From: a virus
DNA length: 30,080 nt
Direction: 5' to 3' (one strand)
IMG/VR virus record: IMGVR_UViG_3300033153_004564
Span: 1 to 30,080 of that record
The notes under the pieces were generated by a model. It made no database searches. It was not told the DNA's origin and worked only from the letters and a program-made list of their open reading frames with translations. The translations under genes and the position numbers were made by a program. Positions 11,157-26,622 of the stretch are shown here, piece by piece; position 1 is the first letter of the stretch; each line of letters begins with the position of its first letter.

Positions 11157-13058
11157 ATGACTAATGAAGAAGCCCTTAAAATAATCCTAAGTGATATAAA
11201 GCAATCTAAAGATGCTAAGAAAGATATTGATGCAAAGATAGACACTTGGATTAAAGAGTATCAAGGTGAGGCATATGGCAATGAGAGAGAAGGTTATTCT
11301 AAACTTGTAGTTAAAGATATAAAGAAAGCTGTAGAGTGGTTTATTCCTAATGCAGTAGAACCTTTTGTTAAGTCTCCCAGAATTGTAGCGTTAGAAGGTA
11401 TCACTGCTGAAGACGTAGAGAGAGCAAAGATGCATGAGAGATTAATTAATCATCAATTTGTTCGTAAATTTGATAGATATGCATTCATCCACGATATGAT
11501 GAAAGTCTCTGGAACTGAAGGTACTACAAATATAAGATGTGGATGGAAACTTGAAGAAGAAGTTAAAACTAAAACATTTGAAGGATTAGTAGAAGAAGAA
11601 CTTCGTGCAATAGAAGACGAAGGTATGGAAATCACTGAACTTAAAAATGTTAATGGTAAATACGATGTTACAGTAGAAAATAGAATTGCTACAAAGAATG
11701 ACCCAGATGCTAAAGTATTAAAGAATGAAGACTTCTTTCCTGACCCATCTGCCACATGTATAGAAGACTCTAGGTTTGGTGCTGAAAGATTTCCTTCAAC
11801 TATAGGTGAACTAAGAGCTAGTAATAACTATACAGAGGCAGAACTATTAGAGATTGATTTATCTCTTGAGAAAACAGATTCAGAGTTAGGTTCTCAAAGA
11901 GAGCAGCGTAGAAAAGAAATGGGCGGAGGTGACCACGAATCACTCGCTGAAGCAGCCAAGAAAGTTACTGTATACGAATACTTTGGATGGCTTGACTTAG
12001 ATGATGATGGTATAGAAGAACCTATCATGGCTACTATTATAAACGATAAACTTCTTCAGATTACAGATAATCCATATCCAGATAAAGAACTTCCTTATGT
12101 ATCTATTCCTTTCTCTAAAACACCTTTTTCATTTTGGGGAGAACCTTTAGCAGAGTTCCTATCAGATAATCAAAAGATTAGAACATCTATTATGCGTGGT
12201 GTTATTGATAATATAGCTCGTTCTAACAATGGTAAGAAGTTTATTAAGAAAGGTTCATTAGATGCTGTGAACAAACGTAGATATGAAAACAACCTTGATG
12301 GTCTTATAGAGTACAATGGAGAAGCTGCTGAAATATTTGATGGTGAATACAATCAGATAGCTCCTAGTGTATTTAATCTATATGAAGTAATTCAACAAGA
12401 ATCTGAAGGATTATCTGGTATCAACAGAACTATGCAGGGTACTGACAGTAGAGGTATCAATGATTCTGCTACTGGTGCAGCTATTCAGCAAGATATGTCT
12501 CAGAAGAGAATGATGGATGTTATCCGTAGACATGCAGATGGATTAGAGAAGGTATTTAGAAAGTGGATTTCTTATAATAAAGAGTTCTTGACAGATGAAG
12601 AAGTTATGAGAATCAACGGAGAGTTTATTCCATTTACCAGAGATGACATTAGTGGTGAGTTTGACATTAATATAACTGTTGGTACTGATGGAGTTGCTGA
12701 AGCCAAAGTAAATCAAATTAGTATGTTGATGCAACAAGTCGGTAAGTTATCTGATGTTGCTACTATACCAGATAGGTTCTTCAATAAAATGTTAGCTAAG
12801 CTAGCAGATGAATGGGGATATGTAGATATAGCACAAGACTTAGAAACTGCTGAAGCACCTCAACCGTCACAAGAACAAATAGAAGCTCAACAATTACAGA
12901 TAGAAGAGCTACAAGCTAAGATAGATGAGATTGTTAGTAAGACTCAACTCAATGAAGCTAAGGCTGTAGAAGCAGGTTCTAATGCTAATGAGACTAATCT
13001 TAATAATAAGATGACAGCTCTTGGTGTTACCAATGATAAGCAAGAGGCTAAAAAATAG
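11157..13058 (+). CDS. Portal protein
   Basis: The 633-residue protein matches portal proteins of podoviruses. The N-terminal region contains the typical basic/helical stretch with Val-Lys-Asp-Ile-Lys-Lys-Ala-Val-Glu-Trp-Phe-Ile-Pro-Asn-Ala (about 51-65), followed by Glu-Pro-Phe...Ser-Pro-Arg-Ile-Val. A Pro-Phe-Ser-Phe-Trp-Gly-Glu-Pro-Leu-Ala segment at about 323-332 and Ser-Gly-Ile-Asn-Arg-Thr-Met-Gln-Gly at about 420-428 are also typical of the family. The last 85 residues are a glutamine/alanine-rich coiled coil (Glu-Glu-Leu-Gln-Ala-Lys-Ile-Asp). It forms the ring through which DNA enters and leaves the head. Its own promoter and the downstream order of scaffold and capsid give a complete head module. 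Confidence 0.9.
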   Translation: MTNEEALKIILSDIKQSKDAKKDIDAKIDTWIKEYQGEAYGNEREGYSKLVVKDIKKAVEWFIPNAVEPFVKSPRIVALEGITAEDVERAKMHERLINHQFVRKFDRYAFIHDMMKVSGTEGTTNIRCGWKLEEEVKTKTFEGLVEEELRAIEDEGMEITELKNVNGKYDVTVENRIATKNDPDAKVLKNEDFFPDPSATCIEDSRFGAERFPSTIGELRASNNYTEAELLEIDLSLEKTDSELGSQREQRRKEMGGGDHESLAEAAKKVTVYEYFGWLDLDDDGIEEPIMATIINDKLLQITDNPYPDKELPYVSIPFSKTPFSFWGEPLAEFLSDNQKIRTSIMRGVIDNIARSNNGKKFIKKGSLDAVNKRRYENNLDGLIEYNGEAAEIFDGEYNQIAPSVFNLYEVIQQESEGLSGINRTMQGTDSRGINDSATGAAIQQDMSQKRMMDVIRRHADGLEKVFRKWISYNKEFLTDEEVMRINGEFIPFTRDDISGEFDINITVGTDGVAEAKVNQISMLMQQVGKLSDVATIPDRFFNKMLAKLADEWGYVDIAQDLETAEAPQPSQEQIEAQQLQIEELQAKIDEIVSKTQLNEAKAVEAGSNANETNLNNKMTALGVTNDKQEAKK

Positions 13059-13432: not shown

Positions 13433-14437
13433 ATGGAAAAAGAACAATCTGATGAGCAATCATATGACGAACTCTATAACCAAGGTTTTGATGAACAGAA
13501 TACTGAAGTAAAAGCTCACGAAGAAAAAGAAGAGGTTATCGAAGAGGATAACATTGAAGAAGATATTGATACTTCAAAAGAGCAACCAACTGAAGAAGAA
13601 GAATCAGAGGAAAAGAAAGAATCTAAAGAAGAGTCTGAAGAAGACGAATCTAAAGAGGAAGATACTACTGAGGAAAAAGATTCGGACTCTGTTGAAGAGG
13701 AAATATATACCATTACTATAGGTGGGCAAGAAGTAAACTTAACTATTGATGAGATGAAAATATTTGCACAGAAGGGCGGAGATTACACACGTAAGACTCA
13801 AGACTTAGCTAAGAATCGTGCAGATGTTGAACTTATGATTGAGAAAGGTTTATCTCGTGAAGACCTAGTAATGATAGCAGACATCAAGTCTGGAAACAAG
13901 GAAGCCTTTGCTGTATTGGCAAAACAAGCTGGAATTGACCCAGTTGAAGTCGAAGAAGATTCAACATATAAGCCAGAGGTTGTTAATCACAACTATGAAC
14001 TTAATGATATCATTTCTGATATAAGAAATGATAGTGTCAATGGTAATACTATTGATAACTGGGTAGCTGCATTACCTAACAGTGCTAGAAGTTCTTTTGC
14101 TGATAATCCAGCAATATTAAAAGGACTTCATATAGACACTGTAAATGGTGTTAGTAAAGAGATTATGCCAGAGGTTATAAAACAACTGGCTATGAATCCT
14201 AATGCTGACTTTGTGCAAGTTTACCAAAGCGTAGGACAAGCGTATGTGAACCGTAAAGCAGAGACTAAAGAGAAAGAGATTAAAACTGTTTCTAAAAAGC
14301 CTGAAGCTAAACGTGAAACTAAACAAAGAGCTAATATATCCAAGACTAAAACAACACATCTTAAAGACCATCAAGACATATGGGAAGATGATGAATTGTA
14401 TGAATCTATGAAGAAAAAATTAGCTGATATGAAGTGA
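13433..14437 (+). CDS. Capsid scaffolding protein
   Basis: The 334-residue protein has a strongly acidic, low-complexity N-terminal third (about 1-90) of Glu/Lys/Ser/Asp runs, a structured middle starting at about 92 with Tyr-Thr-Ile-Thr-Ile-Gly-Gly-Gln-Glu, and a basic, lysine-rich C-terminus at about 275-334. An acidic helical protein immediately before the major capsid gene, ending in a basic coat-binding tail, is the usual layout of podovirus scaffolds. It would direct coat assembly around the portal and leave the head before or during packaging. The assignment rests on composition and position. Confidence 0.8.
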   Translation: MEKEQSDEQSYDELYNQGFDEQNTEVKAHEEKEEVIEEDNIEEDIDTSKEQPTEEEESEEKKESKEESEEDESKEEDTTEEKDSDSVEEEIYTITIGGQEVNLTIDEMKIFAQKGGDYTRKTQDLAKNRADVELMIEKGLSREDLVMIADIKSGNKEAFAVLAKQAGIDPVEVEEDSTYKPEVVNHNYELNDIISDIRNDSVNGNTIDNWVAALPNSARSSFADNPAILKGLHIDTVNGVSKEIMPEVIKQLAMNPNADFVQVYQSVGQAYVNRKAETKEKEIKTVSKKPEAKRETKQRANISKTKTTHLKDHQDIWEDDELYESMKKKLADMK

Positions 14438-14444
14438 GGATAAG

Positions 14445-14801
14445 ATGAAGAAATTTTTAATTGCGTGTATCGCATTAATGACAATCGGTGGTTCTATATA
14501 TGCTGCTGAATCTGTTGGGAAAATCGTAGGAGAAGCTACTGCTACTGAAGTAGAGCTAGGGTATACACCAACCTATATTAAGGTTGTTAATGAAACTGAC
14601 AATCTTACATATGAGTATTTTGTTGGGATTGATGCTAATAAAACAATATTAACAACTGGTTCAACTGGTGTAATTAGTTATGATACAGCTACACTTTTTG
14701 TATCAGTAGGTGCTGTTACAGATGATGATGGCAGTAAATTCTTTGGTTTTAGCGTTGACTCAGATGCGTCTGACGTTATTTATTATGAAGCAAGAAAATA
14801 A
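14445..14801 (+). CDS. Decoration-like capsid-module protein with a signal peptide
   Basis: This 118-residue protein starts with Met-Lys-Lys-Phe-Leu-Ile-Ala-Cys-Ile-Ala-Leu-Met and continues to Ser-Ile-Tyr-Ala-Ala-Glu, a classical Sec signal peptide with a probable signal-peptidase I cut after Tyr-Ala at about residue 21. The mature part is a beta-rich domain of about 97 residues (Val-Gly-Lys-Ile-Val, Tyr-Thr-Pro-Thr-Tyr-Ile-Lys-Val-Val-Asn) like phage head-decoration or fibre domains. It lies between scaffold and capsid, seven bases after the scaffold stop and nine before the capsid ATG. Export of a protein coded in the head module is unexpected; it may act in the envelope or be a captured domain. 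Confidence 0.65.
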   Translation: MKKFLIACIALMTIGGSIYAAESVGKIVGEATATEVELGYTPTYIKVVNETDNLTYEYFVGIDANKTILTTGSTGVISYDTATLFVSVGAVTDDDGSKFFGFSVDSDASDVIYYEARK

Positions 14802-14810
14802 GGATAAATT

Positions 14811-15785
14811 ATGAGTAATACTACTTTAACACAACTTCCTGCTAATATACAGGGGTTTTATGATAGAAAGTTGCTAGAAAGAGCTGAGGCTTTACTAGTT
14901 CACGATATGTATGGACAAGAGAGAGGTCTTCCAAAGAAGAATGGTACTCGTACTAACTTCCGTAGATTCTCGAATCTTGCAGTTGCTACAACTCCGTTGA
15001 CTGAGGGTATTACTCCTTCTGGTTCACAACTTGCTGTTACTGACATCAATGCTACAGTACAACAATATGGTGACTATGTAACACTTACTGATATGGTAGA
15101 TGTTCATGGATTAGACAATACTGTTTCTGAAGCAACAGATATTCTAGGTTATCAAATGGGCCAAACTATTGATGAAGTTATCCGTGATGCAGTTGTTCCT
15201 AACTTAGCAAACAATATTTATATTGCTGCTAGTGAAGCTGCTACTGTTGCTGGTAATATTTGTACACCTACCGCTGTTAAGGCAGCTATTCTTCAGTTGA
15301 AGAATCAAAATGCTATGAAGTTTACTGGTATGGTTAATGCTACTGATGGTGTTGGAACTTCTGCTATTAGAGCTTCATTCTGGGGTATTATACATCCAGA
15401 TGTTACTTATGACATGGAAGATGTTACTGGATGGATTTCTGCTGAAAACTATGCTTCTACTAAAACTCTTAAAGAGGGTGAAGTTGGTAATGTAAAAGAA
15501 GTTCGTTTCATTGAGACAACTCAAGCATATATCAATGTTGATGGTGGAGATACTAATGTTGATACTTACCATACAGCTATTTTTGCTGAAAATGCATATG
15601 GTGTTGTAAAGGTTCGTGGTAAAGGTAACGCAGGAGTTATAGTTAAACCTCTTGGTTCATCTGGTACTGCTGACCCATTAAACCAAAGAAGTACAGTTGG
15701 TTGGAAAGTAACTACTGTTGCTAAGATTCTTAATGATGCATATGCCGTATCTATTGTTTCTAGCTCAAGTCAGGGAGATAACTAG
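14811..15785 (+). CDS. Major capsid protein, N4-gp56 family
   Basis: The 324-residue protein matches the N4-gp56 family of HK97-fold coat proteins. The N-terminal arm includes Gly-Phe-Tyr-Asp-Arg-Lys-Leu-Leu-Glu-Arg-Ala at about 15-25, then Leu-Pro-Lys-Lys-Asn-Gly-Thr-Arg-Thr-Asn-Phe-Arg-Arg-Phe, Thr-Pro-Leu-Thr-Glu-Gly-Ile-Thr-Pro and Gln-Tyr-Gly-Asp-Tyr-Val-Thr-Leu-Thr-Asp, all family hallmarks. The C-terminal half includes a Trp-Gly-Ile-Ile-His-Pro-Asp-Val segment. It builds the icosahedral shell. A ribosome site AAGGATAA precedes the ATG. The stop codon lies within a hairpin and a second hairpin follows, reminiscent of the terminator after gene 10 of T7. Confidence 0.9.
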   Translation: MSNTTLTQLPANIQGFYDRKLLERAEALLVHDMYGQERGLPKKNGTRTNFRRFSNLAVATTPLTEGITPSGSQLAVTDINATVQQYGDYVTLTDMVDVHGLDNTVSEATDILGYQMGQTIDEVIRDAVVPNLANNIYIAASEAATVAGNICTPTAVKAAILQLKNQNAMKFTGMVNATDGVGTSAIRASFWGIIHPDVTYDMEDVTGWISAENYASTKTLKEGEVGNVKEVRFIETTQAYINVDGGDTNVDTYHTAIFAENAYGVVKVRGKGNAGVIVKPLGSSGTADPLNQRSTVGWKVTTVAKILNDAYAVSIVSSSSQGDN

Positions 15786-25561: not shown

Positions 25562-26224
25562 TTATTGGTGGTATGCTTTTACTGCATCATGGAATAATGT
25601 AATATCATTTGGTATCCATGTTTCAATCATATCAAAAGGAGTCTTAGCAGATACTCCAACATATCCTTTAGTCTTATTAGTTAAATATAAATACTCTGGC
25701 ATACCATCTGCATCTGGTTTGACTATATTGTAAAGAACATAAGTGAAGTGACCTTCTAATCCTCCTCCTTTTAAACTACCTTGTATTCTTGAAAAAGTTT
25801 TATTTACCATTTCTTTATCATCATATATATCTTGTGCATGAGCAAGGAATATATAATTGATTCTACTTCTCTTAGCCATATTAATAATTTTAAGGATATA
25901 TGATTTATAATCTCCCCATGCTTTCATACCATTACTAGAGTTCTCTATATGCTCTGTATAGAACATATCTCCTAAAAAGGTAATTGTATCTATTACACAG
26001 TATTCTATACTCTCATCACTCTCTATCTGCTCCATACCATTAATTAATTGCTGAGTGCTATCAAGACTAATGTTCTTATTTAATTCAGCATGTTTAAAAG
26101 GTATTGGCTTAGAATCTACATTTACATAACATACTTTAGATAAATCTAAATTTCTTAGTGCTGAAGTTTTTCCACAACCTGAATCGGCACAACAGAGAAC
26201 TGTCATATCTACTTTATCATTCAT
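25562..26224 (-). CDS. Sak4-like RecA-fold ATPase (single-strand annealing recombinase)
   Basis: This 220-residue protein has a P-loop at residues 13-20 (Ala-Asp-Ser-Gly-Cys-Gly-Lys-Thr) and a Walker B strand at 75-79 (Tyr-Cys-Val-Ile-Asp, Asp79). It then shows Phe-Leu-Ala-His-Ala-Gln-Asp and a Ser-Arg-Ile-Gln-Gly-Ser-Leu-Lys-Gly-Gly-Gly region. This matches the short RecA-core Sak4/AAA_24 family of phage recombinases, which anneal single strands with help from an SSB. Its neighbours fit exactly: an SSB-like protein downstream and a RuvC-like resolvase further on. The ATG overlaps the upstream stop, and GGAGATATACA is a strong ribosome site. Confidence 0.82.
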   Translation of the reverse strand: MNDKVDMTVLCCADSGCGKTSALRNLDLSKVCYVNVDSKPIPFKHAELNKNISLDSTQQLINGMEQIESDESIEYCVIDTITFLGDMFYTEHIENSSNGMKAWGDYKSYILKIINMAKRSRINYIFLAHAQDIYDDKEMVNKTFSRIQGSLKGGGLEGHFTYVLYNIVKPDADGMPEYLYLTNKTKGYVGVSAKTPFDMIETWIPNDITLFHDAVKAYHQ

Positions 26225-26622
26225 TGTATATCTCCTCTAAAATCAATATCAGGTAAAATTGTTTGCGGTTTAAATATCACTCTATAATGATATGCATTTA
26301 CACTTTTTGGTTCTAATTGTTCAGCAAAATAAGTTACATTATCAGATAAGCCAAGATAATGTTTTTTATAGCTATCTTCTCCCGTTTTACAAATTACTGC
26401 TACTCTTCTTGAGTTTGGTTCTAAAGAACACTTACCATTTATAGTAAGCATATACTCGCTCGTTATTCCATTGTAAAAAACAATTCTTCTATCAACCTCA
26501 AACATATCAGATGCTTTTGAAATATTCTCTGACACTATTCTTGCATCAGTACATCCACTTAAAAACATAGTTATAGCAATTGTAATTGTTATAATTGTTT
26601 TATTTATAATTCTATTACTCAT
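26221..26622 (-). CDS. Beta-sandwich-type phage lipoprotein
   Basis: The 133-residue protein starts with a basic N-terminus and a hydrophobic stretch at about 8-21, followed by the lipobox Leu21-Ser22-Gly23-Cys24, so Cys24 should be lipidated. Residue 25 is Thr, not Asp, predicting sorting to the outer membrane. The rest is beta-rich, with Arg-Arg-Ile-Val-Phe-Tyr-Asn-Gly-Ile-Thr, Cys-Lys-Thr-Gly and Tyr-His-Tyr-Arg-Val-Ile-Phe-Lys-Pro-Gln. This resembles a widespread phage lipoprotein family usually called beta-sandwich lipoprotein. Sitting between primase and recombinase genes it should be made early, which fits a superinfection-exclusion role; this role is inference. ATGA overlaps link it to both neighbours. 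Confidence 0.75.
   Translation of the reverse strand: MSNRIINKTIITITIAITMFLSGCTDARIVSENISKASDMFEVDRRIVFYNGITSEYMLTINGKCSLEPNSRRVAVICKTGEDSYKKHYLGLSDNVTYFAEQLEPKSVNAYHYRVIFKPQTILPDIDFRGDIQ

Follow-up and report, generated by a model that had tools for sequence, protein, structure and literature searches.

Introduction

Small accessory proteins decorate the heads of some tailed phages. Lambda gpD, T4 Soc and Hoc, phage L Dec, T5 pb10 and N4 gp17 are small, mostly beta, and often encoded near the head genes. These proteins are made and bound to the capsid in the cytoplasm. N4 gp17 contains three Ig-like domains (PMC11768535). Purified pb10 binds assembled T5 heads quasi-irreversibly when it is added to them (PMC5292684). 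A review of decoration proteins mentions neither a signal, nor the periplasm, nor secretion. A different kind of small phage protein, T5 Llp, is involved in superinfection exclusion; it is periplasmic, contains a disulfide and blocks the receptor (PMC9586334). Llp is a lipoprotein.

The 118-aa protein described here resembles both types. It shares with the decoration proteins a small size, a mostly beta composition, an accessory distribution and a place near the head genes, but it has an export signal, and no sequence or fold match to them is detectable. With T5 Llp it shares a small size, a phage origin and an export signal; however, the clade to which it belongs has no conserved lipobox.

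Results

The gene lies in the window, which is the whole stretch of 30,080 nucleotides analysed here and corresponds to bases 1-30080 of an AT-rich viral record of 41,759 bases. The features of its head operon are listed in Table 1. The earlier note had placed a protein between the scaffold and the capsid, and this is a real open reading frame: the scaffold stop is 7 bp before its start, the start of the major capsid protein (MCP) is 9 bp after its end, and a GAGG Shine-Dalgarno sequence 5' of the ATG gives it a ribosome-binding site of its own. Promoter-like sites near the gene are fewer than in shuffled sequences. A moron with its own promoter and terminator was considered and rejected, with no promoter-like site just upstream and no terminator-like site in the gap between the gene and the MCP.

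Table 1. Features of the head operon around the 118-aa gene, with the terminase of the record.
Feature	Position	Strand	Basis or remark
Terminase	in the same record		PHROG 38
Portal protein, N4 gp59-like	11157..13058	+	PHROG 1216; same operon as the 118-aa gene
Scaffold-like protein, N4 gp57-like	13433..14437	+	PHROG 2120/3927; upstream neighbour
Ribosome-binding site region GAGGATAAG	14435..14444	+	overlaps the TGA stop of the scaffold gene
118-aa head-module protein, predicted signal peptide and mature all-beta domain	14445..14801	+	open reading frame; homologues
Predicted Sec/SPase I signal peptide, residues 1-20, MKKFLIACIALMTIGGSIYA	14445..14504	+	kept in L002 and L006; pLDDT below 50
Mature all-beta domain, nine predicted strands, motif VELGYTPTYIKVVNETDN	14505..14798	+	motif common to cytosolic MCP-adjacent homologues
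Major capsid protein (MCP), N4 gp56 type	14811..15785	+	PHROG 1357; downstream neighbour

The nearest named relatives of the portal belong to Alteromonas and Achromobacter phages, which are N4-like and infect Gram-negative hosts. This makes a Gram-negative host, with a periplasm, likely. The counterpart of the scaffold in Alteromonas phage AD45-P1 is annotated as N4 gp57-like. PHROG 2120 calls this scaffold-like family a 'tail length tape measure protein', despite its place directly before the MCP; the label is a probable annotation error that spreads, AD45-P1 included. A 77-aa 'major coat protein' encoded after the AD45-P1 MCP, examined because it might be a membrane protein, proved not to be.

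The predicted signal, MKKFLIACIALMTIGGSIYA followed by AES, has the n/h/c layout of a Sec type I signal. It contains a KK pair, an 18-residue run without charged or strongly polar residues, and a site between IYA and AE, at residue 20, that follows the (-3,-1) rule. At -3, Ile is permitted though not optimal, so that the word 'textbook' used in the earlier note is slightly generous; the elements themselves are present and are kept in two homologues. A simple hydrophobicity and charge filter for signals was passed by only 4 of 530 forward open reading frames of at least 90 aa at loci other than the window, and two of these four are the homologues of the window gene in L002 and L006. A chance origin of the signal is unlikely.

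Six close loci (L001-L006) were found by a search with the MCP. Between the scaffold and the MCP, L002 encodes a 115-aa homologue (49% identical to the window protein; signal MKKILLGMFLAVSAMFGAEA) and L006 one of 120 aa (45% identical; signal MKKTLIALLAIACLVTVGSA). All three proteins start with MKK and have an apolar run (18, 15 and 17 aa in the window, L002 and L006) and a cleavage-rule site at residue 20. Since this layout is kept although the mature domains diverge by 36-54%, the signal is best explained as retained through selection for export. The window protein is quite probably translocated by Sec and cleaved, as judged from these features. A further scan with the three signal-bearing sequences gave nothing new, the patterns being partly spent on the common MKK start. 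The MCP of L006 (4214-5101) lacks a stretch of about 30 residues found in its relatives, around PKNNGTRTNFRRYSNLAVATTPLSEGVTPNGSQ in L002; the gap is a true deletion or comes from faulty assembly.

L002 and L006 share two Cys residues, in EVC[LI]GF and ACYGF, and both positions are occupied by other residues in the window protein. The pair may form a periplasmic disulfide, though its conservation may also be a coincidence. A lipoprotein of the Llp, Cor or Ltp type was considered and rejected because no Cys is conserved across the signal-bearing clade: L002 has no Cys within residues 1-34, and Cys8 of the window protein is too early in the h-region for a lipobox.

The other close loci differ in this slot. 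L005 has a 95-aa homologue (33% identical) between the scaffold and the MCP, which starts with MRANDAGTFTS and has no hydrophobic segment; the distance from the scaffold stop to its start codon leaves no room for one. The first 70 bases of the L005 contig, far from the family gene, translate like sequencing-adapter read-through (QAEDGIRDTSVTGVQTCALPIS) and are probably a contig-end assembly artefact. In L001, L003 and L004 the scaffold is followed directly by the MCP (gap of 11-32 bp). No family member turned up anywhere in L001 when its whole 37.7-kb record was searched with a profile, and none was present in the L003 and L004 records, which are both short fragments. The gene is thus accessory.

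About ten more distant homologues were found by an alignment search and further profile and pattern searches (L021, L026, L029-L034, L068 and MW202426.1 UOF76809). All of them are without a signal peptide. Wherever the neighbour was checked it is an N4 gp56-type MCP, either of PHROG 1357 or annotated as MCP, and the family gene is usually downstream of it; L005, where the gene lies between the scaffold and the MCP as in the window, is the exception. The conserved core of the family is V-x-LGF-x-P-x-YV-x-x-x-N. The window protein belongs to this family by its homologous domain and by its place beside a gp56-type MCP. A DNA pattern for LTTGSTGVI gave four more candidate relatives, all without a signal, of which L068 is clear, L064 weaker, L067 doubtful and L059 supported by the pattern only. 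A single-sequence search with the window protein found no relative among 50,697 phage records and none in IMG/VR. When genome contigs were scanned with the family alignment, no cellular homologue was seen, and the same scans with the MCP found only distant relatives in MAGs, mostly of Clostridia. A search of plasmids for relatives found none.

Since the small beta family has no significant match in Pfam, PHROGs, NCBIfam or PDB sequence profile searches, it is an uncatalogued family that accompanies gp56-type capsid modules. The AlphaFold2 model of the window protein (from a 12-sequence alignment) leaves the signal region without structure, with pLDDT below 50 for residues 1-19, and has nine strands in the remainder. 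The L002 model is better, with a mean pLDDT of 77.9 and an identical layout of nine strands. In 10-residue blocks of the mature part, pLDDT ranges from 51 to 88 in the window protein and from 66 to 92 in L002. Foldseek found no significant match for the beta domain in the PDB. In BFVD a single match had E below 0.001; the other neighbours were moderate (best TMq 0.56-0.58) and included phage fibre and structural domains. Two of these, A0A8S5MH89 and A0A6J5QL19 with DUF7483, rank among the best for the L002 model (TMq 0.56-0.57, E 3e-3 to 8e-3); they are larger virion proteins, and the likeness is one of fold class only. The Pfam sequence search gave no DUF7483 match in the small beta family.

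The trees of the capsid and of the small protein do not agree on the position of L005. In the MCP tree, L005 is the sister of the window (86% identity, support 96/93), and the nearest scaffold to that of the window is also in L005 (66%). In the tree of mature domains, the window, L002 and L006 form one clade (support 99/97) with L005 outside, and a pairing of the window with L005 is rejected (p-AU 0.03). The placement of L005 just outside the exported clade has a support of only 65/46. As far as this small sample of the slot shows (three exported occupants and one without a signal), the signal-bearing form arose once. L002 and L006 are more alike in the exported protein (64% identity) than in the MCP (57%); between L002 and the window, MCP identity is 80%. 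This suggests horizontal exchange, and the exported form has apparently moved between phages.

The earlier note had named homologues without a hydrophobic N-terminus as evidence that would count against its proposal. Such homologues exist, in the same slot in L005 and beside the MCP in about ten other cases, but they fall outside the signal-bearing clade. Their position shows that a cytosolic head-module family either gained the signal or lost it; the hydrophobic segment is not thereby meaningless.

Endonuclease genes also occur in this slot. L002 has an HNH-like endonuclease gene (1799-2302, recognised by eye) between the gene for the exported protein and the MCP, and in Stenotrophomonas phage StenR_269 the corresponding place between scaffold and MCP is taken by a gene annotated as an intron homing endonuclease (L048 3011-3460). 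It is plausible, but unproven, that these endonucleases are the motor of the exchange.

Discussion

The distribution of the family suggests that, in viruses of the window type, a shell-associated protein has been converted into one with its site of action outside the cytoplasm of the host. The most likely function is the envelope role raised in the earlier note, which remains the leading idea. More specifically, the protein is tentatively proposed to be a late envelope or receptor-blocking factor, similar to Llp, and a Sec-exported variant of a cytosolic MCP-adjacent beta family. It would be made from the head operon late in infection, driven through the Sec translocon and cut by signal peptidase I after about residue 20. 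The beta domain would then fold in the periplasm, where the Cys pair of two of the three members may form a disulfide. From the periplasm, and in the medium after lysis, the domain would bind a component of the host envelope. The outcome could be that re-adsorption or superinfection is blocked, or that progeny are spared inactivation on debris; T5 Llp acts in this way from the periplasm. The envelope as the target of the exported domain is itself a tentative assignment.

This reading has the best precedent because T5 Llp is small, periplasmic, disulfide-containing and receptor-blocking. The fit is incomplete. The window protein does not have the Cys pair, and with no lipobox conserved in the clade it is not a lipoprotein of the Llp or Cor type. 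In addition, every other member of the family that was found is in a head module, beside the MCP where this was checked, and is without a signal, which points to the capsid as the ancestral partner.

That ancestry is the basis of the first alternative, in which the exported protein folds in the periplasm, apart from the proheads, and binds mature capsids only once lysis mixes the compartments. In this way it would retain the capsid partner of its ancestors, and would either not bind too early or benefit from oxidative folding. The association of the family with gp56-type MCPs agrees with this, as does the fact that near relatives have members with and without a signal in one and the same slot. 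The behaviour of T5 pb10 shows that adding a protein this late is physically feasible. However, no earlier example was found of a tailed phage that exports a capsid component by Sec, and this alternative is doubtful. The general form of the idea, that a tailed phage exports its own decoration protein by Sec and coats the virion only at lysis, with exported and cytosolic versions swapped in the slot, is unlikely.

The name 'decoration protein' fits the window protein by position, size and fold class, and is unproven. The earlier note had compared its beta domain to those of decoration proteins. The nine strands predicted by AlphaFold2 agree with a small beta domain, and a small accessory head-module gene that is missing from some relatives is typical of such proteins; nevertheless, with no fold match in the PDB, the likeness to them is one of gene position only. 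If export is true, related head operons carry one family as an exported version, a cytosolic version or no version. They would then offer a natural contrast between the recruitment of a capsid-associated fold to the envelope and heads that are finished outside the cytoplasm.

Another possibility is that the protein is some other exported late accessory, acting for example in host-surface glycan binding, lysis timing or protection from other phages, which recombined into the head operon and has no link to the capsid. The patchy presence of the gene, the higher identity of the exported proteins than of the MCPs in L002 and L006, and the endonuclease genes in the same slot are consistent with such an origin. 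The gene has no promoter or terminator of its own, though, and since the family is otherwise found beside MCPs it is not a foreign moron. An accessory of this kind is likewise unlikely.

The hydrophobic N-terminus could instead remain uncleaved and serve as an inner-membrane tether of the assembling heads or of the protein itself, or as a hydrophobic arm in the virion. All three proteins have a hydrophobic segment after KK, and their beta domain comes from a head-module family. The apolar run of 15-18 aa would make a marginal transmembrane helix, with weak transmembrane-like sums of -0.2, +2.0 and -1.1 kcal/mol, values close to zero or unfavourable; these sums are position-independent and use a scale that is reportedly that of Hessa et al. 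2005. The cleavage-rule site at residue 20 in all three also argues against retention, and the beta domain, if exported, would be separated by the membrane from the cytoplasmic heads that it is meant to hold. The anchoring of heads to the membrane, which the earlier note offered as its second option, is thus weakened, and an uncleaved N-terminus is quite improbable. Both the membrane tether and the coat added only at lysis are less likely than the envelope or receptor-blocking factor.

It is very improbable that the signal is an artefact, such as a wrong start or a chance hydrophobic N-terminus on a cytosolic decoration protein: cytosolic homologues exist and in the window Met12 offers another start in frame, but the ribosome-binding site is at Met1, the signal is kept in three diverged proteins and the filter is rarely passed, and the L006 homologue has no further ATG until about residue 60, so its start is not a mis-call that hides a shorter protein, and a wrong start codon was ruled out.

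A second candidate exported protein of the phage is encoded at 26221-26622 on the minus strand of the window. It belongs to Phage_VG64 / PHROG 478 (E about 1e-51) and starts with MSNRIINKTIITITIAITMFLSGC, a lipobox-like signal, so that its product is a probable lipoprotein. The PHROGs label of this family is recombination directionality factor.
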